54,216 bases of DNA from contig JAIVHI010000168.1 of NCBI GenBank assembly GCA_020201155.1, positions 1-54,216 on the forward strand, read 5' to 3'. This DNA is from Loktanella sp. GTDB taxonomy: Bacteria > Pseudomonadota > Alphaproteobacteria > Rhodobacterales > Rhodobacteraceae. The first letter of the stretch is position 1; each line of letters opens with the position of its first letter. Shown piece by piece: positions 12,696 to 45,837 of the stretch. The notes under the pieces were generated by a model. It was not told where the DNA came from, made no database searches, and saw only the letters and a list, made by a program, of their open reading frames with translations. The translations under genes and the position numbers were made by a program.

Positions 12696-15668
12696 ATGAA
12701 CGACCAGTCCCCCAACGACGCCTTCCACGCCTCCAGCTTCCTGCAGGGTCACAACGCGGAATATGTCGAACAGCTTTACGCCCGCTATGCCGACAACCCG
12801 CAAGCGGTCGATGAAAGCTGGCGCCAGTTCTTCGAAGCCTTGGGCGATGCTCCGCAAGAGGCGCAGGCCGAAGCAGCTGGCCCCAGCTGGGCGCGGACCG
12901 ACTGGCCGCTACAGCCGATGGACGACCTGACGGCGGCGCTGGACGGGCAATGGCCTTCGGACCCCAAGGATGCGAAGGCCGCAGCAGACAAGATCAAGGC
13001 CAAGGCTGCCGAAAAGGGCGAAGAGGTCTCTGACGCGCAGGTGCAATCGGCCGTGCTGGATTCGCTGCGCGCGCTGATGTTGATCCGCGCCTACCGGATC
13101 AGGGGCCACCTGGTGGCCGACCTCGATCCGCTGGACATGCGCGAAGACGTGCCGCACCCCGAACTCGACCCCGAGTCCTACGGCTTCGGCGCCGGCGACA
13201 TGGACCGACCGATCTTCATCGACAACGTGCTGGGTCTCGAAGTCGCCACGATGAATGAGATCATGGCGATCGTGAAGCGCACCTACTGCGGCACCTTCAC
13301 GCTGCAATACATGCACATCTCGAACCCCGACGAGGCCGCTTGGCTGAAAGAGCGGATCGAGGGTTACGGCAAGGAAATCCAGTTCACCAAGAACGGGCGC
13401 AAGGCGATCCTCGACAGTCTGGTCGAAGCCGAAGGCTTCGAGAAGTTCCTCCATGTCAAATACATGGGCACCAAGCGCTTCGGTCTGGACGGTGGCGAAA
13501 GCCTGATCCCCGCGATGGAGCAGATCATCAAGCGCGGCGGCCAGCTGGGACTGGAAGAGATCGTCATCGGCATGCCCCACCGGGGACGCTTGTCGGTGCT
13601 GGCGAACGTGATGGAAAAGCCCTATCGCGCGATCTTCAACGAATTTCAGGGCGGCAGCTTCAAGCCCGAGGATGTCGACGGCTCCGGCGACGTGAAATAC
13701 CACCTCGGCGCATCCTCGGACCGCGAGTTCGACGGCAATTCCGTTCACCTGTCGCTGACCGCGAACCCGTCGCACCTTGAGGCGGTGAACCCTGTTGTTC
13801 TCGGCAAGGTCCGCGCCAAGCAGGACCAGAAGAACGACAAGGACCGCACCAAGGTCATGGGCGTGCTGTTGCACGGGGACGCGGCCTTTGCCGGTCAGGG
13901 TGTCGTGGCCGAAGGCCTGCAGATGTCCGGTATCCGCGGACACCGCACCGGCGGCACCATGCATATCGTGGTGAACAACCAGATCGGTTTCACCACCGCG
14001 CCGCACTTCAGCCGCTCCAGCCCCTACCCCACCGACATCGCGCTGATGGTCGAGGCGCCGATCTTCCACGTGAACGGGGACGATCCCGAAGCCGTCGTGC
14101 ACGCGGCGCGGGTCGCCACCGAATTCCGGCAGAAGTTCCACAAGGACGTGGTGCTCGATCTCATCTGCTACCGCCGCTTCGGTCACAACGAAGGCGACGA
14201 GCCGATGTTCACCAACCCGGTGATGTACAAGAAGATCAAGAACCAGAAGACCACGCTGACGCTCTACACCGAGCGGCTGATCAAGGACGGCCTGATCCCC
14301 GAAGGCGAAATCGAGGACATGAAGACCGCGTTCCAGGCCCACCTGAACGAAGAGTTCGAGGCCGGGAAAGAGTACAAGCCGAACAAGGCCGACTGGCTGG
14401 ACGGCCGTTGGTCGCATATCGACCGCCGCGACGAGGCCGAATACCAGCGCGGCGCCACGGCCATCAGCGAGGAAACCTTTCGCGATGTCGGCAAGGCGCT
14501 GAGCACGCTCCCCGAGGGGTTCAACACCCACCGCACGATCGACCGCCTGATGAAATCCAAGGCCGAGATGTTCGAGACCGGCACCGGGATCGACTGGGCC
14601 ACCGGCGAGGCGCTGGCCTTCGGGTCGCTTCTGACAGAGGGGTACAACGTCCGTCTGGCCGGTCAGGACAGTGTGCGCGGCACGTTCAGCCAGCGCCATT
14701 CCGCCCTTGTCGATCAGAAAACGGAAAACCGTTATTATCCGCTCAACCACATCCGCGACGGTCAGGCACAATACGAAGGCATCGATTCGATGCTGTCGGA
14801 ATATGCGGTTCTGGGCTTCGAGTATGGCTATTCGCTGGCCGAACCCAACGCATTGGTCATGTGGGAAGCGCAGTTCGGTGATTTCGCCAACGGCGCGCAG
14901 ATCATGTTCGACCAGTTCATCAGCTCGGGCGAAAGCAAGTGGCTGCGAATGTCGGGGCTGGTCATGCTGCTGCCCCATGGCTTCGAAGGTCAGGGTCCGG
15001 AACATTCCTCTGCCCGGCTCGAGCGGTTTCTGCAGATGTGCGGGAACGACAACTGGATTGTGGCGAACTGCACGACGCCCGCCAATTATTTCCACCTGCT
15101 GCGCCGCCAGTTGCACCGCGACTTCCGCAAGCCGCTGGTTCTGATGACGCCCAAGTCCCTGCTGCGCCACAAGATGGCCGTATCGCGGACCGAGGAGTTC
15201 ACCACCGGGTCGTCCTTCCACCGCGTTCTCTGGGACGATGCGGAATACGGCAACTCGGACACCAAGCTGGTCAGCGACGACAAGATCAAGCGCGTCGTGA
15301 TGTGTTCCGGCAAGGTCTACTTTGACCTTCTGGAAGAACGCGACGCCCGCGGGATCGACGACATCTACCTGATGCGGTTCGAACAGTTCTATCCCTTCCC
15401 GGCCCAATCCGCCGTGAAAGAGCTCGAGCGGTTCAAGAATGCCGAAATGATCTGGTGTCAGGAAGAGCCCCGCAACCAGGGTGGTTGGACCTTCATCGAA
15501 CCCAACCTTGAATGGGTTCTGACCCGCATCAAGGCCACGCACACCCGGCCCCGCTATGTCGGCCGCAACCCCTCGGCCAGCCCGGCGACGGGTCTGGCCA
15601 GCCAGCACAAAGCCCAACAAGCCGCGCTCGTGAACGACGCGCTGACCATCGAAGGAACCACCAAATGA
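12696..15668 (+). CDS. sucA: 2-Oxoglutarate dehydrogenase E1 component
   Basis: A 990-residue thiamine-diphosphate decarboxylase of the 2-oxoglutarate dehydrogenase complex. The N-terminal E2-binding region ([20 protein letters not shown]) is followed by a low-complexity Ala/Lys linker, [13 protein letters not shown], the ThDP-binding stretch from [13 protein letters not shown] to [17 protein letters not shown] and the C-terminal [14 protein letters not shown] lies 8 nt before the ATG at 12696. Stop and sucB start overlap (ATGA), coupling E1 to E2. Confidence 0.98.
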
Positions 15669-16936
15669 GCACCGAAGTCCGCGTCCCGACCCTTGGCGAA
15701 AGCGTCAGCGAAGCGACCGTCGCCACATGGTTCAAGCAACCCGGCGACACCGTCGCCGTGGACGAAATGCTTTGCGAGCTTGAAACCGACAAGGTGACCG
15801 TCGAGGTGCCCAGCCCGGTCGCCGGTACGCTGTCCGAGATCGTGGCGAACGAGGGCGACACCGTCGGCGTCGATGCCCTGCTCGCACAGATCAGCGAAGG
15901 CGACGCCAAGCCCGCCGCCAAGAAAGACGACAGCGCGAAAGAGAACGAAACGCCCGACACCGCCGAAACCGAGAAATCCGCCTCCTCCGAGGATGTGCCG
16001 ACGGCGGCTGCCACCGGCGCTCATCCCGACCCGCGCGGCGATGTGGAGGATGCACCTTCGGCCAAGAAGATGATGGCCGAGAATGACCTCAAGGAGGGTG
16101 ACGTTCAGGGCACGGGCAAGGACGGCCGCGTGATGAAAGAGGACGTGCTCAAGGCGCTGTCCACCAAGTCCGAAGCGCCTGCCCCCGCCCCCGCGGCCAA
16201 GCAAGCCCCCCGCGCACCGACCGCCGCCGATCAGGCCGATCGCGAGGAACGGGTCAAGATGACCCGCCTGCGCCAGACCATCGCCAAGCGCCTGAAAGAC
16301 AGCCAGAACACTGCCGCGATGCTGACCACCTACAACGAGGTCGACATGACCGCTGTCATGGATCTGCGGAACGAATACAAGGACCTGTTCCTCAAGAAGC
16401 ACGGCGTGAAACTGGGCTTCATGTCCTTCTTCACCAAGGCCTGCTGTCATGCGCTGAAAGAGGTTCCAGAGGTCAACGCCGAGATCGACGGAAACGAGAT
16501 CGTCTACAAGAACTTCGTCAACATGGGCATCGCCGCCGGCACGCCCACGGGTCTTGTGGTGCCGGTCATCAACGACACCGACGCCATGTCGTTCGCCGAG
16601 ATCGAAAAGGCCATTGCCGAAATGGGTGCGAAAGCCCGCGACGGCAAACTGTCCATGGCCGAGATGCAGGGCGGTACCTTCACCATCTCGAACGGTGGCG
16701 TCTACGGGTCGCTCATGTCCTCGCCCATCCTGAACCCGCCGCAGTCGGGCATCCTCGGCATGCACAAGATCCAGGACCGCCCGATGGCCATCGGCGGAGA
16801 GGTCGTGATCCGCCCGATGATGTATCTGGCCCTGTCCTACGATCACCGGATCGTGGACGGCAAAGGTGCCGTGACGTTCCTTGTCCGCGTGAAAGAGGCG
16901 CTGGAAGACCCCCGCCGGCTGTTGATGGATCTGTGA
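15665..16936 (+). CDS. sucB: 2-Oxoglutarate dehydrogenase E2, dihydrolipoyl succinyltransferase
   Basis: A 423-residue core of the 2-oxoglutarate dehydrogenase complex. Domains in order: lipoyl domain (about 2-77, lipoylated Lys in ETDKVTVEV), an Ala/Pro/Lys/Glu-rich linker, the peripheral subunit-binding domain (about 131-165, [17 protein letters not shown]), a second Ala/Pro linker, and the catalytic domain ending with [13 protein letters not shown], which holds the active-site His-Asp pair. Start ATG 15665 overlaps the sucA stop by 4 nt; an in-frame upstream extension lies in sucA and is rejected. Confidence 0.98.
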
Positions 16937-38086: not shown

Positions 38087-39691
38087 ATGGACTATGTGAA
38101 ATTGGCGCTGTTGGGCGTCGTGACTTTGGTTGCAGCCATCGCAACCAACTGGGCAAGGGATCTGGCATTTCAGGTTCACGCCGTTCTTATCATGTTGATT
38201 GCAGGCGGCATGTTCGTCTGGGTTCTGCGCGGCATCGGAGAGCCCGCGATGAAGCCGGTGCCGAACGACGTCTATCACGACGGAATCATCCGTGCGGGCG
38301 TGATCGCCACCGCCTTCTGGGGCATCGCGGGCTTTCTGGTAGGGACGTTCATCGCCTTCCAACTGGCGTTTCCCGCGCTGAACTTCGACTGGGGGCAGCC
38401 CTTCACGAACTTCGGGCGCCTGCGGCCACTTCACACAAGTGCCGTGATCTTCGCATTCGGGGGCAACGCCCTGATCGCCACCTCGTTCTACGTTGTCCAG
38501 CGCACCAGCGCCGCGCGCCTTTGGGGTGGCAACCTTGGATGGTTCGTCTTCTGGGGTTATCAGCTTTTCATCGTTCTGGCCGCGACCGGCTACGTTCTGG
38601 GGTCCACCCAGTCCAAGGAGTATGCCGAGCCTGAATGGTATGTGGACATCTGGCTGACAATCGTCTGGCTGGCCTATCTGGCCGTCTTCATGGGCACGAT
38701 CTTCAAGCGGCGCGAGCGTCATATCTATGTCGCCAACTGGTTCTTCCTCGCCTTCATCGTCACCGTGGCGATGCTGCACGTGGTCAACAACCTCAGCGTG
38801 CCGGTCAGCATCTGGGGCAGCAAGTCCGTGCAGGTCTTCAGTGGCGTGCAGGATGCCATGACGCAGTGGTGGTACGGCCACAACGCGGTGGGCTTCTTCC
38901 TGACCGCAGGCTTCCTGGGGATGATGTACTACTTCGTGCCCAAGCAGGCCGGTCGTCCGATCTACAGCTACAAGCTGTCGATCATCCACTTCTGGGCGCT
39001 GATCTTCCTGTATATCTGGGCCGGCCCGCACCACCTGCACTACACCGCACTGCCCGACTGGGCGTCGACCTTGGGCATGGTGTTCTCGATCGTGCTCTGG
39101 ATGCCCAGCTGGGGCGGCATGATCAACGGCCTGATGACCCTGCAGGGGGCATGGGACAAGCTGCGCACGGACCCGATCCTGCGGATGTTCGTCCTGTCAC
39201 TGGGCTTTTACGGCATGTCCACCTTCGAGGGTCCGATGATGTCGATCCGCGCGGTGAACTCGCTGTCGCACTACACCGACTGGACGATCGGTCACGTCCA
39301 CTCCGGCGCACTTGGCTGGAACGGCATGATCACCTTCGCCTGTCTCTATTTCCTGACACCTAGACTGTGGGGTCGCGCTCAGATGTATTCGATACGTGCA
39401 ATCAGCTGGCACTTCTGGCTCGCAACACTTGGCATCGTTCTCTACGCCGCCTCGATGTGGGTCACCGGCATCATGGAAGGCCTGATGTGGCGCGAGGTCG
39501 ATGACCAGGGCTTCCTCGTCAACTCCTTCGCCGACACCGTGAGCGCCAAGTTCCCGATGTATGTGGTCCGTGGTCTGGGCGGGGTTCTGTTCCTGTCAGG
39601 CGCGCTGGTCATGGTCTGGAACATGTTCATGACGATCCGCGGCGCCGATCCGGCGACCGCGACCGTCCCTCACGCACAACCTGCTGAATAA
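38087..39691 (+). CDS. ccoN: cbb3-type cytochrome c oxidase, catalytic subunit I
   Basis: A 534-residue haem-copper oxidase subunit with about 13 helices; reduces O2 with high affinity. Haem b ligand His in [15 protein letters not shown], Cu(B) His and the cross-linked Tyr region in [20 protein letters not shown], the His pair in [15 protein letters not shown], and haem ligands in [10 protein letters not shown]. First gene of ccoNOQP, behind an FNR box. AAGAGG lies 8 nt before the ATG. Confidence 0.97.
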
Positions 39692-39703: not shown

Positions 39704-40534
39704 ATGGTCGATCACGAAAACGATAAAATCCCGCCGGCAGAGAAAGACCCCAAGGTCAGCACCGTGTCGGACTTTCCGGACGAGATTCCGAACGAACTGC
39801 CGCATCACACCAAGCTGATCGAAAAGCACGCGATCCTCGAGAAGTCCCCGACCCTGCTTCTGGTCGCATCGCTTCTGGTGGTGACGATCGGCGGTATCGT
39901 GGAAATCGCGCCGCTGTTCTGGCTGGAAAACACCATCGAAGAAGTCGATGGGGTGCGTCCTTACTCGCCGTTGGAACTGACCGGGCGGGACATCTACGTC
40001 CGCGAGGGCTGCTATGTCTGCCACAGCCAGATGATCCGGCCCATGCGCGACGAGGTCGAGCGTTACGGCCACTACTCGCTGGCGGCGGAATCGATGTATG
40101 ACCACCCGTTCCAGTGGGGCTCCAAGCGCACTGGGCCGGATCTGGCCCGCGTCGGCGGACGCTATTCGGACACGTGGCACGTGGATCACCTGATGGATCC
40201 GCAATCCGTGGTGCCGGAAAGCATCATGCCGAAATACGCCTTCCTTGCGGATACACCCATCAATGCCAACGGGGTCGAAGACCTGCTGGCAACGCACCGG
40301 TTCGTCGGTGTTCCCTATACGGACGAACAATTGGAAAACGCCGGCAGCGACTTCATCGTGCAGGCGAATGTCGAAGCCGATACCGATGGGCTTCTTGAAC
40401 GCTATCCCGGTGCGGTGGTTTCGAACTTCGACGGACAGGCCGCGCTGACCGAAATGGATGCGTTGATCGCTTACCTGCAAATATTGGGCACGATGGTCGA
40501 TTTCTCGACCTTCACACCCGATGCCAGCCGCTAG
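39704..40534 (+). CDS. ccoO: cbb3-type cytochrome c oxidase, monohaem subunit II
   Basis: A 276-residue membrane-anchored cytochrome c. One N-terminal helix (about 46-66, [20 protein letters not shown]), then a haem c motif [11 protein letters not shown] and a distal Met region [24 protein letters not shown] overlaps the ccoN stop. It receives electrons from CcoP and passes them to CcoN. Confidence 0.96.
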
Positions 40535-40543
40535 GAGGACACA

Positions 40544-40783
40544 ATGGATAACCCGTCACTATTCCAGCAACTCGCCGACAACTGGCTTCTTGTCTCGATG
40601 TTCTCGTTTTTCGTCGGCGTTGCCGTCTTCGCTTTCCTGCCCAGCCAACGGGCGGCGCGCGAAGACGCCAGCATGATCCCCTTCCGCAACGATACGATCC
40701 CCGAAAAGACCTGCAAGGGCACGTGCAAGACCTGCGCCTGCAAGGATTCGGAATTCAAACTTGAAGGACAAGCCGATGTCTGA
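40544..40783 (+). CDS. ccoQ: cbb3 oxidase small subunit CcoQ with a cysteine-rich tail
   Basis: A 79-residue protein with one transmembrane helix (about 12-33, NWLLVSMFSFFVGVAVFAFL) and a cytoplasmic tail. Position between ccoO and ccoP and the RNDTIPEK segment identify CcoQ, which stabilises the complex. The tail has four cysteines in ten residues (TCKGTCKTCACKD, pattern CxxxCxxCxC), so metal binding is conceivable. AGGAGGAC precedes the ATG. The stop lies inside the start of ccoP (8-base overlap). Confidence 0.85.
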   Translation: MDNPSLFQQLADNWLLVSMFSFFVGVAVFAFLPSQRAAREDASMIPFRNDTIPEKTCKGTCKTCACKDSEFKLEGQADV

Positions 40784-41483
40784 CCGCAAGATCGACAAGG
40801 AGACCGGCGTCGAAACCACCGGCCACAACTGGGACGGTATTGAAGAGCTCAACAACCCCCTGCCCCGCTGGTGGCTGTGGACCTTCTACATCACGATCAT
40901 CTGGGCCATCGGCTACACGATCGCCTATCCGGCCTGGCCGATGATCTCGGGCGCGACGGCAGGTGTAATGGGCTACTCGACACGCGCAGAGGTCACCGAG
41001 GCAATCGCGGCCCACGAAGAACGGAACGTGGACCTTGTGGCTTCGCTCAATCAGGGCGATCTGAACGTGATCGAGGCCGGCAGCGACCTGCACCGCTATG
41101 CCACGGCCCGCGGTGGCGCGGTGTTCCGCGCCCAGTGCAGCCAGTGCCATGGTGCGGGCGCGGCGGGTGCGACAGGCTATCCCAACCTGCTGGATGACGC
41201 ATGGCTGTGGGGCGACTACGACGCCACCCTCGCCTCTGCGGGAGAATCCATTTTCATGGACAATTGCGCGGCGTGCCACGGCGAAGACGCACGGGGAAAC
41301 CGCATGCTTGGTGCGCCGAACCTCAGCGACGAGATCTGGCTCTATGGCGGGGATCGCGACACGCTTGAATACACCGTCCGAAACGCCCGGTTCGGTGTCA
41401 TGCCGGCCTGGGGCCAGCGGCTGTCGGAAGAGGACGTGCGGGCGGTCTCGATCTACGTGCACGCCCTGGGCGGCGGCGAATAG
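40776..41483 (+). CDS. ccoP: cbb3 oxidase dihaem subunit CcoP, first haem domain apparently truncated
   Basis: A 235-residue dihaem cytochrome c with one N-terminal helix (about 33-56). Haem motifs are CSQCH (121-125) and CAACH (164-168), 43 residues apart. As I know the family, the spacing is roughly twice that and the first domain has a distal Met segment (MPAFG-like) before the second domain. Here WLWGDYDATLASAGESIF joins the first domain directly to the second motif, with no usable Met. The second domain is intact (GVMPAWG, then YVHALGGGE). ATG 40776 has GAAGGA upstream. Confidence 0.9.
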   Translation: MSDRKIDKETGVETTGHNWDGIEELNNPLPRWWLWTFYITIIWAIGYTIAYPAWPMISGATAGVMGYSTRAEVTEAIAAHEERNVDLVASLNQGDLNVIEAGSDLHRYATARGGAVFRAQCSQCHGAGAAGATGYPNLLDDAWLWGDYDATLASAGESIFMDNCAACHGEDARGNRMLGAPNLSDEIWLYGGDRDTLEYTVRNARFGVMPAWGQRLSEEDVRAVSIYVHALGGGE

Positions 41484-41679: not shown

Positions 41680-41732
41680 AGCGGTGGCCGCGGGGTGCGC
41701 CTATTCCAACAATGGCGAACAGGATTGGACCA

Positions 41733-43274
41733 ATGACAGACACATCACTTTATGCACCGCGCGTCCCGATTTTCCCGCGCCGGGTTTCGGGGCGGTTTCG
41801 CCGTTTCAAATGGATCGTGATGATCGTCACGTTGGGCATCTACTATATCACGCCCTGGATCCGCTGGGATCGCGGCCCGAACCTGCCCGATCAGGCGGTC
41901 CTGATCGACATGGCGACACGGCGCTTCTACTTCTTCTGGATCGAGATCTGGCCGCACGAATTCTACTTCGTCGCGGGGCTCTTGATCATGGCGGGGCTGG
42001 GGCTTTTCCTGTTCACCGCAGCCCTGGGTCGCGTCTGGTGCGGCTATACCTGCCCCCAGACGGTCTGGACCGACCTTTTCATCCTTGTCGAGCGCTGGAT
42101 CGAAGGCGACCGCAACGCGCGGGTCAGGCTGCACAACGCCAAGTGGGACGTCCGCAAATGGCGGCTGCGGCTGACCAAGTGGATCGTCTGGCTGCTGATC
42201 GCCGTCGCCACGGGCGGTGCGTGGGTGTTCTACTTTACCGACGCGCCGACGCTGGCCGTCGACCTTGCGACATTCGACGCACCGGCGGTCGCCTATATCA
42301 CGATATTGATCCTGACCCTCACCACCTTTGTCTTTGGCGGGTTCATGCGCGAGCAGGTCTGCATCTACATGTGCCCCTGGCCCCGGATTCAGGCCGCCAT
42401 GATGGACGAAGGCACCATCACGGTCGCCTACCGCGAATGGCGGGGCGAACCGCGCGGCAAGGGCAACCTCAAGAAGCGCGCCAAGCTCAAGGCGTTGAAC
42501 GCCGAGGCCATCACGCCCGCCGCAGGTCCGGGCGAGGCCCGCTACGCGCCGACGCCCTACCCCAAGCCCGCGCTGCAGATCGGCGGTGACGGCCTTGTCA
42601 CCGCGGCCGAAGGACCGGGCGATTGCATCGATTGCATGGCCTGCGTGAACGTCTGCCCGATGGGCATCGACATCCGCGAAGGACAGCAGATGGAGTGTAT
42701 CACCTGTGCGCTGTGCATCGATGCCTGCGACGACGTGATGGACAAGATCGACCGCCCGCGCGGCCTGATCGGGTATCTCGCCCTGTCCGACGAAGATCTG
42801 GAACGTCAGGGCAAGCCCGGGAAACCGCTGCTGTCACACGTTCTGCGACCACGCACCCTTTTGTACACGGGTCTGTGGCTCTTGATCGGTGTGGGGCTGA
42901 TGTGGGCGCTGTTCATCCGGTCGGACATCGAACTGACGGTCAGCCCGGTCCGCAACCCGACCTTCGTCGTTCAGGCCGATGGCGCGGTGCGCAACATCTA
43001 CGACGTGCGTTTGCGCAACAAGTCCGGCGATGACCGCGAATTTCAGCTGAGCCTCACGACCGATGCGGCCTTGCAGGTCGATCTGGAAGGCGAAGACGAT
43101 CTGACCGTCAACGTCCCCGCCGACACGACCATCCTGCAGCGGCTCTACGTGACGGCCCGGCCAGAGGCACAGGCCGCGTCCGTGGACGCAACCCCGCTGC
43201 GGATATGGGTGGAAGACAGTAGCACCGGCAACCGCGCGGGTGTCGCGACAACATTCAATGGGAGAGTGCAATGA
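41733..43274 (+). CDS. ccoG: CcoG (FixG-like) membrane ferredoxin-type protein for cbb3 assembly
   Basis: A 513-residue protein that acts in copper handling for cbb3 oxidase assembly. Start MTDTSLYAPRVPIFPRRVSG, about five helices, cytosolic double 4Fe-4S motif (CIDCMACVNVCPMGI and CITCALCIDACDDV) and a C-terminal Ig-like periplasmic domain after the last helix. ATG 41733 is preferred over 41712 from family N-termini and the FNR-box geometry. The stop overlaps ccoH by 4 nt. Confidence 0.94.
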   Translation: MTDTSLYAPRVPIFPRRVSGRFRRFKWIVMIVTLGIYYITPWIRWDRGPNLPDQAVLIDMATRRFYFFWIEIWPHEFYFVAGLLIMAGLGLFLFTAALGRVWCGYTCPQTVWTDLFILVERWIEGDRNARVRLHNAKWDVRKWRLRLTKWIVWLLIAVATGGAWVFYFTDAPTLAVDLATFDAPAVAYITILILTLTTFVFGGFMREQVCIYMCPWPRIQAAMMDEGTITVAYREWRGEPRGKGNLKKRAKLKALNAEAITPAAGPGEARYAPTPYPKPALQIGGDGLVTAAEGPGDCIDCMACVNVCPMGIDIREGQQMECITCALCIDACDDVMDKIDRPRGLIGYLALSDEDLERQGKPGKPLLSHVLRPRTLLYTGLWLLIGVGLMWALFIRSDIELTVSPVRNPTFVVQADGAVRNIYDVRLRNKSGDDREFQLSLTTDAALQVDLEGEDDLTVNVPADTTILQRLYVTARPEAQAASVDATPLRIWVEDSSTGNRAGVATTFNGRVQ

Positions 43275-43723
43275 TCCGGGAACTGAAAGGCTGGCATGTC
43301 GCCAGCGGCTTTGTGGTGGCCTTCGGCATCATCATCACCGTGAACCTGACACTGGCGTTCAATGCCGTTCAGACTTTCCCGGGACTGGAGGCCAAGAACT
43401 CCTATGTCGCGAGCCAGAGTTTCGACGTCAATCGCGACGCTCAGTTGGCGTTGGAATGGGATGTCGCGGCAGAGTTGGACGGTGACCAGCTTCAGCTGAC
43501 GATTCTCGAGAAGGGCACACCCATCGCGCCCGAGATCGAAGAGGCCATCTTTGGCCGCGCCACCTTTGTCGGTCATGACCAGACACCGGATTTCGTGTTC
43601 CGTGACGGGGCCTTGATGGCACAGGTCGACGCGGGCCCCGGCAACTGGAACCTCCGGCTCAAGGCGCGGTCCGCGGATGGCACATTGTTCCAGCAACGGA
43701 TCATCGTGGGCGACGCCGAATGA
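43271..43723 (+). CDS. ccoH: FixH/CcoH family cbb3 assembly protein
   Basis: A 150-residue protein with one N-terminal helix (about 9-31, HVASGFVVAFGIIITVNLTL) and a periplasmic domain. The start MIRELKGWHVASGFVVAFG and the motif KNSYVASQSFDVNRD match FixH. It supports assembly or stability of the oxidase. Start and stop overlap neighbours by ATGA junctions. Confidence 0.92.
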   Translation: MIRELKGWHVASGFVVAFGIIITVNLTLAFNAVQTFPGLEAKNSYVASQSFDVNRDAQLALEWDVAAELDGDQLQLTILEKGTPIAPEIEEAIFGRATFVGHDQTPDFVFRDGALMAQVDAGPGNWNLRLKARSADGTLFQQRIIVGDAE

Positions 43724-45837
43724 CCGCGGCCTGTGCTGCCTGTTCGGTCGCGCCGCTTGCGGAAGAGACCGCCAAGGCCCGCGGGCAGCAATTTGCCTTG
43801 CCCGGCATTCATTGCGCGGCCTGCATCGGCAAGATCGAACGGGGTCTTGCCAGCCTACCCGGCGCGGGCGACGTACGGGTCAATCTTTCACTGAAGCGGC
43901 TTTCGATCAGTGGCCCTGCACCGGCAGACCGTATCCTGACCGCCCTTTCGGACCTTGGTTACGAGGCTTACCCGCTGGATACCGAGGCATTGGCCCGCGC
44001 CTCCGATTCCGAAGGCCGCACCCTGCTGACGCGCCTTGCAGTCGCCGGTTTCGCGATGATGAACGTGATGCTGTTGTCGGTCGCCGTCTGGTCGGGGGCC
44101 ACCGATGCCACCCGTGACCTGTTTCACCTGATTTCGGCCCTGATCACCCTGCCCGTCATCGCCTATTCCGGGCAGCCATTCTACCAGAACGCATGGAAAG
44201 CGCTGCGAGTCCGGCGGCTCAACATGGATGTGCCGATTTCGCTGGCCATCCTGCTGGCGGCGGGGATGTCGCTTTTCGAGACCTTGATGAGCGGCAAGCA
44301 CGCCTATTTCGATGCCGCCTTGTCGCTGACCTTCTTCCTGCTCATAGGCCGCTATCTGGACCACCGCACGCGCAGCCATGCGCGATCCGCCGCGAAAGAA
44401 CTGACGGCTCTGGAAGTGCCGACCGCGCAACGCGTCGAGGGCGAGAGCCTGCGCAGCGTGCGGATCGATGCCATCGCGCGGGACGACGAATTGCAGGTTC
44501 CCTCGGGTGGGCGGATGCCCGTCGACGGTATCCTGCTGTCCGATACCGCCCTGCTCGACAGGTCGTTCCTGACCGGTGAAAGCGCCGCGCAGACCGTCGC
44601 CTCCGGTGACGCCGTTCAGGCAGGCGAAATCAACCTCGGCGCACCGCTGCGCCTGCGCGCGACTGCCGTGGGCGAGGACACGAGCCTGCGCCGCATGGCC
44701 GCATTGGTGGAAACCGCCGAAAACGCACGCAACAGCTATACAGCGCTGGCCGACAGGGCGGCGCAAACCTACGCGCCGGCCGTCCATCTGCTGGCACTGG
44801 CCGCCTTTCTGGGATGGTTCTTTTACGACGGCGACATCAGGCATGCCATCAACGTGGCCATCGCCGTTCTGATCATCACCTGCCCCTGCGCATTGGGTCT
44901 TGCGGTTCCCGCCGTGTCCACCGCAGCGATCAGCCGCCTGTTCAGCGCGGGCGTGCTTGTCAAACACGCCACCGCGCTGGAGCGGCTGGCAGAGGTCGAT
45001 CACGTGGTCTTCGACAAGACCGGCACCCTGACAAAACCCTCGGTCGTGGTGCCAGAGCAGATGACCGCCGAACAGCGGGACATCGCCCTTTCGCTCGCCC
45101 AACACTCTGCCCACCCCTTGTCGAAGGCGGTCGTGACCGCCCTCAAGGGTGCAACACCCGTTTTCCTGACTGACCTGACCGAGCATCCGGGGCATGGGAT
45201 CGCAGCCGTCAGCGCGGGGGTGCCCGTCAAGCTGGGCCGCGGCGCATGGCTGGATGCGGACTTCGATGGCCTTGGCCTGCGGATCGGGACCGCGCCTGCG
45301 CTGCCGTTCGAAGTGCCCGACGCCCTGCGCCCCGGCGTGAAAGAGGCGCTGTCCGGTTTGAACTTGCCCGCCGAGGTTCTGACCGGTGACGCCCCCGCCC
45401 CCGCCAAGCTTCTGGCCGACCGGCTGGGGCTGCCCGTGCGCGCGCAGGCCCGCCCCGAAGACAAGCTGGCCCGGCTCGACGCCCTGAAAGCCGAAGGCCG
45501 CCACGTCCTGATGGTCGGCGACGGCCTGAACGACACGGCGGCATTGGCCGCAGCCCATGCGTCGATCGCGCCCGCAAGCGCGCTGGACGCATCGCGCAAT
45601 GCCGCGGATGTCGTCATCATGACCGATGGTCTGGAAAGCCTGCCGCTGATCCTGCGCATCGCACGTGCGACACGCGACCTGAGCAAGCAGAACTTTTCAA
45701 TTGCCACAATTTACAATATCATTGCGGTACCGGCAGCGCTCGCGGGATACGCGACCCCGTTGGCCGCAGCCTTGGCGATGTCGATTTCGTCCATCACCGT
45801 GCTTTTGAATTCAGCCCGCATGCGGAGCGTAAAATGA
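43720..45837 (+). CDS. ccoI: Copper-transporting P-type ATPase CcoI (FixI)
   Basis: A 705-residue heavy-metal ATPase that exports copper for cbb3 maturation. N-terminal heavy-metal domain with Cys32-x-x-Cys35 (IHCAACIGK), and an additional C5AAC8 pair at the extreme N-terminus. Membrane ion site TCPCALGLAVP, phosphorylation site DKTGTLT, and the hinge GDGLNDTAAL are present. ATGA overlaps both sides, within ccoGHIS. Confidence 0.95.
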   Translation: MTAACAACSVAPLAEETAKARGQQFALPGIHCAACIGKIERGLASLPGAGDVRVNLSLKRLSISGPAPADRILTALSDLGYEAYPLDTEALARASDSEGRTLLTRLAVAGFAMMNVMLLSVAVWSGATDATRDLFHLISALITLPVIAYSGQPFYQNAWKALRVRRLNMDVPISLAILLAAGMSLFETLMSGKHAYFDAALSLTFFLLIGRYLDHRTRSHARSAAKELTALEVPTAQRVEGESLRSVRIDAIARDDELQVPSGGRMPVDGILLSDTALLDRSFLTGESAAQTVASGDAVQAGEINLGAPLRLRATAVGEDTSLRRMAALVETAENARNSYTALADRAAQTYAPAVHLLALAAFLGWFFYDGDIRHAINVAIAVLIITCPCALGLAVPAVSTAAISRLFSAGVLVKHATALERLAEVDHVVFDKTGTLTKPSVVVPEQMTAEQRDIALSLAQHSAHPLSKAVVTALKGATPVFLTDLTEHPGHGIAAVSAGVPVKLGRGAWLDADFDGLGLRIGTAPALPFEVPDALRPGVKEALSGLNLPAEVLTGDAPAPAKLLADRLGLPVRAQARPEDKLARLDALKAEGRHVLMVGDGLNDTAALAAAHASIAPASALDASRNAADVVIMTDGLESLPLILRIARATRDLSKQNFSIATIYNIIAVPAALAGYATPLAAALAMSISSITVLLNSARMRSVK

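Follow-up and report, generated by a model that had tools for sequence, protein, structure and literature searches.

The cbb3 oxidase operon of this Loktanella contig raises the question of whether a subunit that appears to lack half of a haem domain is an unusual enzyme or a product of the assembly. In the window, by which we mean the whole stretch of 54,216 nucleotides that was analysed, ccoP (40776..41483, plus strand) encodes, as deposited, a subunit III of 235 aa from which about 52 residues are missing. The first haem c motif, CSQCH (residues 121-125; 41136..41150, plus strand), opens a stub of domain 1, and the second, CAACH (residues 164-168; 41265..41279, plus strand), belongs to a domain 2 that is complete to the C terminus. 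The junction lies between the codon of G146, the last residue of WLWG (143-146), and that of D147 (41213..41214, plus strand), and WLWG directly adjoins DYDATLASAGESIF. Re-reading the open reading frame confirms what the earlier note had seen: the motifs, at 121 and 164, are only 43 residues apart, and the sole Met between them is M161, close before CAACH. What is absent is the distal half of the first cytochrome c domain; the gap keeps the frame and has its right edge within the linker that separates the two domains, leaving domain 2 whole.

The protein scores 306.5 bits against the CcoP equivalog model TIGR00782 (curated cut-off 179.95), its N-terminal FixP_N membrane segment is normal (PF14715, 91.2 bits, residues 11-57), and both CxxCH motifs of a CcoP are present, at residues 121 and 164. 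The deposited protein does not contain two complete cytochrome c domains, each with its distal Met, although the organism's own CcoP probably does. It resembles the CcoP/FixP proteins (TIGR00782; Rhodobacter capsulatus CcoP, 6xkw) in its FixP_N segment, its two CxxCH motifs, its complete domain 2 and its position after ccoNOQ, but differs from them in lacking about 52-54 residues between the motifs, the Met segment of domain 1 included. The alignment to the solved CcoP chains that match best breaks in two near residues 147-150 and leaves about 53-54 residues of the structure unmatched. A second copy of ccoP was not found in the genome.

How unusual the gap is becomes clear from the relatives. 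CcoP reading frames were taken from 121 loci, three of which (L001, L111, L122) are the window's own locus and were dropped; the 118 that remain (29, plus the best 80 of 576 matches, plus 9 from a junction-peptide search) were not de-duplicated, and some are near-identical. Among these 118 relatives the motif spacing ranges from 89 to 104 with a mode of 95, the exact value in 72, and every one of them has M-x-x-[FYW] in the stretch from the first motif to the second. The earlier note had given a spacing of 85-90 with a distal-Met segment; the segment is borne out, and the spacing was set slightly low. The loss in the window thus amounts to about 156 nt (about 52 residues) if the lost spacing was 95, and to 138-183 nt over all the relatives' spacings, and the claim that the distal half of the first domain is gone holds against the same 118 sequences, the best 80 of 576 matches among them. 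An alignment of 30 sequences places the nearly invariant columns absent from the window's CcoP between G146 and D149. The closest named relatives (best 80 of 576 matches) are mostly Rhodobacteraceae, and the top one among these 80 is Flavimaricola marinus, with 63% in the best segment. When a 72-aa peptide across the junction was searched against 394 family genomes (threshold 1e-16), 42 passed, and the peptide matched from end to end (1-72) only in the window's own genome; in the remaining 41 the match begins only at residue 25-29, and the open frames that hold it are 284-357 aa long. A search of plasmids contributed nothing further. Among the matches listed in the open-access literature, we found no description of a CcoP without half of domain 1.

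The rest of the operon looks complete. Upstream of ccoP lie ccoN (38087..39691), ccoO (39704..40534) and ccoQ (40544..40783), the last overlapping the start of ccoP; downstream lie three genes that, from position and similarity, we take to be ccoG (41712-43274), ccoH (43271-43723) and ccoI (43720-45837), all on the plus strand. We counted as a missing run any three or more successive columns that at least 80% of relatives fill. No such run was found in CcoN (against 104 relatives), CcoO (107), CcoQ (99), CcoG (87), CcoH (63) or CcoI (60), whereas CcoP, compared with 109 relatives, has three, of 19, 10 and 19 columns. Where at least 98% of relatives share a residue, CcoN has it at 75 of 75 columns and CcoO at 101 of 101; some of the loci compared are partial, so that fewer columns could be counted. 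The gap is thus a true property of the deposited sequence and, as the six other products show no comparable one, is confined within the operon to ccoP.

If the stub had been without function for long, it should have drifted. Over 82 loci that hold N, O, P and G, the mean distance of the window's CcoP is 0.419 against a median of 0.452, with 71 of the 82 relatives more divergent. By segment, the distances for the window and the relatives are 0.488 and 0.486 (residues 1-113), 0.211 and 0.182 (the stub, 114-147, where 28 of the 82 relatives are higher), and 0.430 and 0.445 (domain 2). Between residues 100 and 169 there are 31 positions at which at least 90% of relatives agree, and the window's CcoP departs from them at only one, A142, which gives no sign of adaptation in this region. 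By these distances what is left of CcoP, stub included, does not look as though it were decaying and appears to evolve at a normal rate. The absence of drift in the stub suggests that the gap is either very recent or not real. Structure prediction does not decide the matter, as the models of the short protein (mean pLDDT 61.0) and of an intact relative's CcoP (65.5) are both poor.

The genome is a draft of 342 contigs and 91.48% completeness. To judge the assembly we compared 490,626 bp of it, made up of the window and at most the first 20 kb of each of contigs 1-60, with 1.6 Mb of the single-contig relative G003, the one relative used in this control. In the raw comparison, antisense shadows included, there were 9 losses of at least 20 aa in the Loktanella genome over 156 G003 reading frames, and 2 in G003 over 146 frames in the reverse direction. 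After shadow frames were removed and 55% identity was required, an internal loss of this size was found in 6 of 80 genes here versus 2 of 72 in G003. The six are pncB, purM, glpD, ribA, ppdK and glyS (names from NCBIfam); they do not include ccoP, which the not fully sensitive filter missed, its two matches overlapping too far or being too low in identity. The 20 multi-match pairs on this genome, of which several come from repeated or related genes, include no net shift under 140 nt. Internal stops numbered 2 over 96 genes, 21 of these in the window, and 14 on G003 DNA in the reverse comparison; the latter are probably due to antisense reading frames, and the stop counts are therefore only a rough measure. 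With no small shifts and two internal stops, the pattern of loss is not that of ordinary gene decay. A single stretch of 173 N, perhaps a scaffold gap, was also seen in the sampled contigs.

Two of the affected genes are single-copy and have lost sequence in frame. purM (L158, G000:C34, about 2346, minus strand) lacks 240 nt: it is split at residues 107/187 with zero bases between, and the region is uninterrupted in all 28 of the 36 other genomes that have a match at 1e-30, one of these matches containing an in-frame TGA. pncB, for nicotinate phosphoribosyltransferase (L157, G000:C33, about 8448, plus strand), lacks 141 nt: it is split at 338/386 at adjacent bases, and residues 339-385 are covered in 17 of the 18 genomes with a match (18 of 36 match), the exception being G019, where only residues 3-49 matched; G009 and G022 are split at other places. 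In both cases the absent region is present in solved homologues. In three further genes the frame is broken relative to G003. From ribA (L165, G000:C41, about 2075) about 340-346 nt are lost, a stretch that falls partly within an unbroken alignment of the G003 protein to GTP cyclohydrolase II (2bz0). From ppdK (L180, G000:C56, about 2100) about 173 nt are lost, and the solved homologues, to which this check was limited, span the region in one stretch. From glpD (L158, G000:C34, about 15021) 142-154 nt are lost, but a second, intact copy on C130 means that this damage could be real, so that glpD is a weak case. glyS was dropped as a case of assembly loss, as G001, G006 and G012 are also short there. 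Two large gapped alignments, on L126 (presumably an alpha-2-macroglobulin-like protein) and L148 (presumably an outer-membrane-like one), were set aside at 50-53% identity, below the 55% filter. A sucB-like dihydrolipoyl transferase gene in the window (15665-16936) has one lipoyl domain against two in G003; we judged this to be natural variation and dropped it too, and it is possible that this gene is a collapsed repeat in the assembly itself.

The finding of comparable clean losses in unrelated conserved genes, some of them breaking the frame, makes an assembly error the likelier origin of the ccoP gap, and we put the probability that it is an assembly deletion and not an unusual enzyme at roughly 0.8. 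The organism would then have an ordinary cbb3 oxidase, its CcoP a normal di-haem protein of about 287 aa, and the gap of about 156 nt would have arisen while the fragmented draft was assembled or scaffolded, for example where contig ends were joined over an unsequenced stretch. At a lost spacing of 95 the ccoP loss lies within the size class of the other losses (roughly 140-350 nt), and we infer that the gaps share a technical cause and do not represent a burst of real deletions. Among the features that speak against this reading, the frame is kept, which chance would give in one case out of three, the right edge of the gap sits in the linker, leaving domain 2 whole, and the relatives have no long repeat at the breakpoints. 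That a clean in-frame deletion interrupts an otherwise intact cbb3 operon, as the earlier note had put it, is right for the sequence and the operon; its biological reading probably gives way to assembly error, the very outcome that the note had named as one that would refute it.

A real and very recent in-frame deletion that damaged CcoP, with other terminal oxidases carrying respiration, is an unlikely alternative, under which the cbb3 oxidase would function badly or with only its CcoN-CcoO core. The preserved frame and the complete remainder of the operon fit such an event, as does the lack of a rate increase in CcoP if the deletion is very recent, and the genome also holds two further COX1-type genes and a cytochrome bd subunit I, so that a loss of cbb3 could be survived. 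However, a single event in ccoP would not explain the clean losses in purM and other unrelated conserved genes, and the junction occurs in none of the other family genomes (394 searched). We consider it very improbable that the short protein is a natural working form, produced by one clean in-frame loss, in which domain 1 is a stub, haem 1 is absent, unligated or differently ligated, and domain 2 shifts towards CcoO and passes electrons to it directly as the sole point of entry. The kept frame, the edge in the linker and the complete domain 2 are what such a protein would show, and a shortening of the electron path described for R. capsulatus (PMC7876108) is thinkable; yet the form is seen in 1 of 394 family genomes, and the 30 of 31 unchanged positions bear no mark of adaptation.

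The Met within the deleted part ligates haem 1 in domains of this kind. If the deletion were real, haem 1 would have a changed ligation or be missing altogether, and the locus would offer a natural experiment on whether cbb3 oxidases need the haem closest to CcoO for electrons to enter. PMC7876108 describes electrons in the R. capsulatus cbb3 oxidase as running along cp2, cp1 and co, a path that would be cut here unless domain 2 had moved towards CcoO. The changed ligation of haem 1, or electron flow by way of haem 2 and CcoO, that the earlier note had proposed finds no support once similar clean gaps are seen elsewhere in the assembly.

As to how an assembly deletion could have come about, a simple collapse of repeats does not explain it: in the 118 relatives (the best 80 of 576 matches included) no long repeat was found at the breakpoints, where shared words are 5-10 nt long and the flush match is 0-5 nt. 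A collapse between the two haem domains was likewise rejected, judged from the relatives' alleles, as the breakpoints are at non-homologous places and the longest direct repeat left in ccoP is 9 nt. Several figures of 47 aa had prompted the idea of a fixed loss of 141 nt, set by the assembler's word length; the sizes of 141, 142-154, 173, 240 and 340-346 nt do not agree with it, and in ccoP it would require a lost spacing of 90, seen in 2 of the 118 relatives (the best 80 of 576 among them). For now, the main value of the locus is as a warning that conserved genes of this draft contain clean internal gaps, some of them in frame, where gene callers would report shortened proteins as real.

A natural CcoP with a reduced haem-domain content relative to close relatives is known from Neisseria meningitidis, where a tri-haem form has been truncated to a di-haem one (PMC2924362). 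It lost an extra C-terminal domain through a premature stop codon, a change that marks a species, whereas the window's CcoP lacks half of its first core domain in one draft assembly. In the same operon, the tail of CcoQ (40544-40783 of the window) is cysteine-rich, with the pattern C-x3-C-x2-C-x-C, and a similar C-x(2-4)-C-x(1-3)-C occurs in the CcoQ of 34 of 99 relatives.
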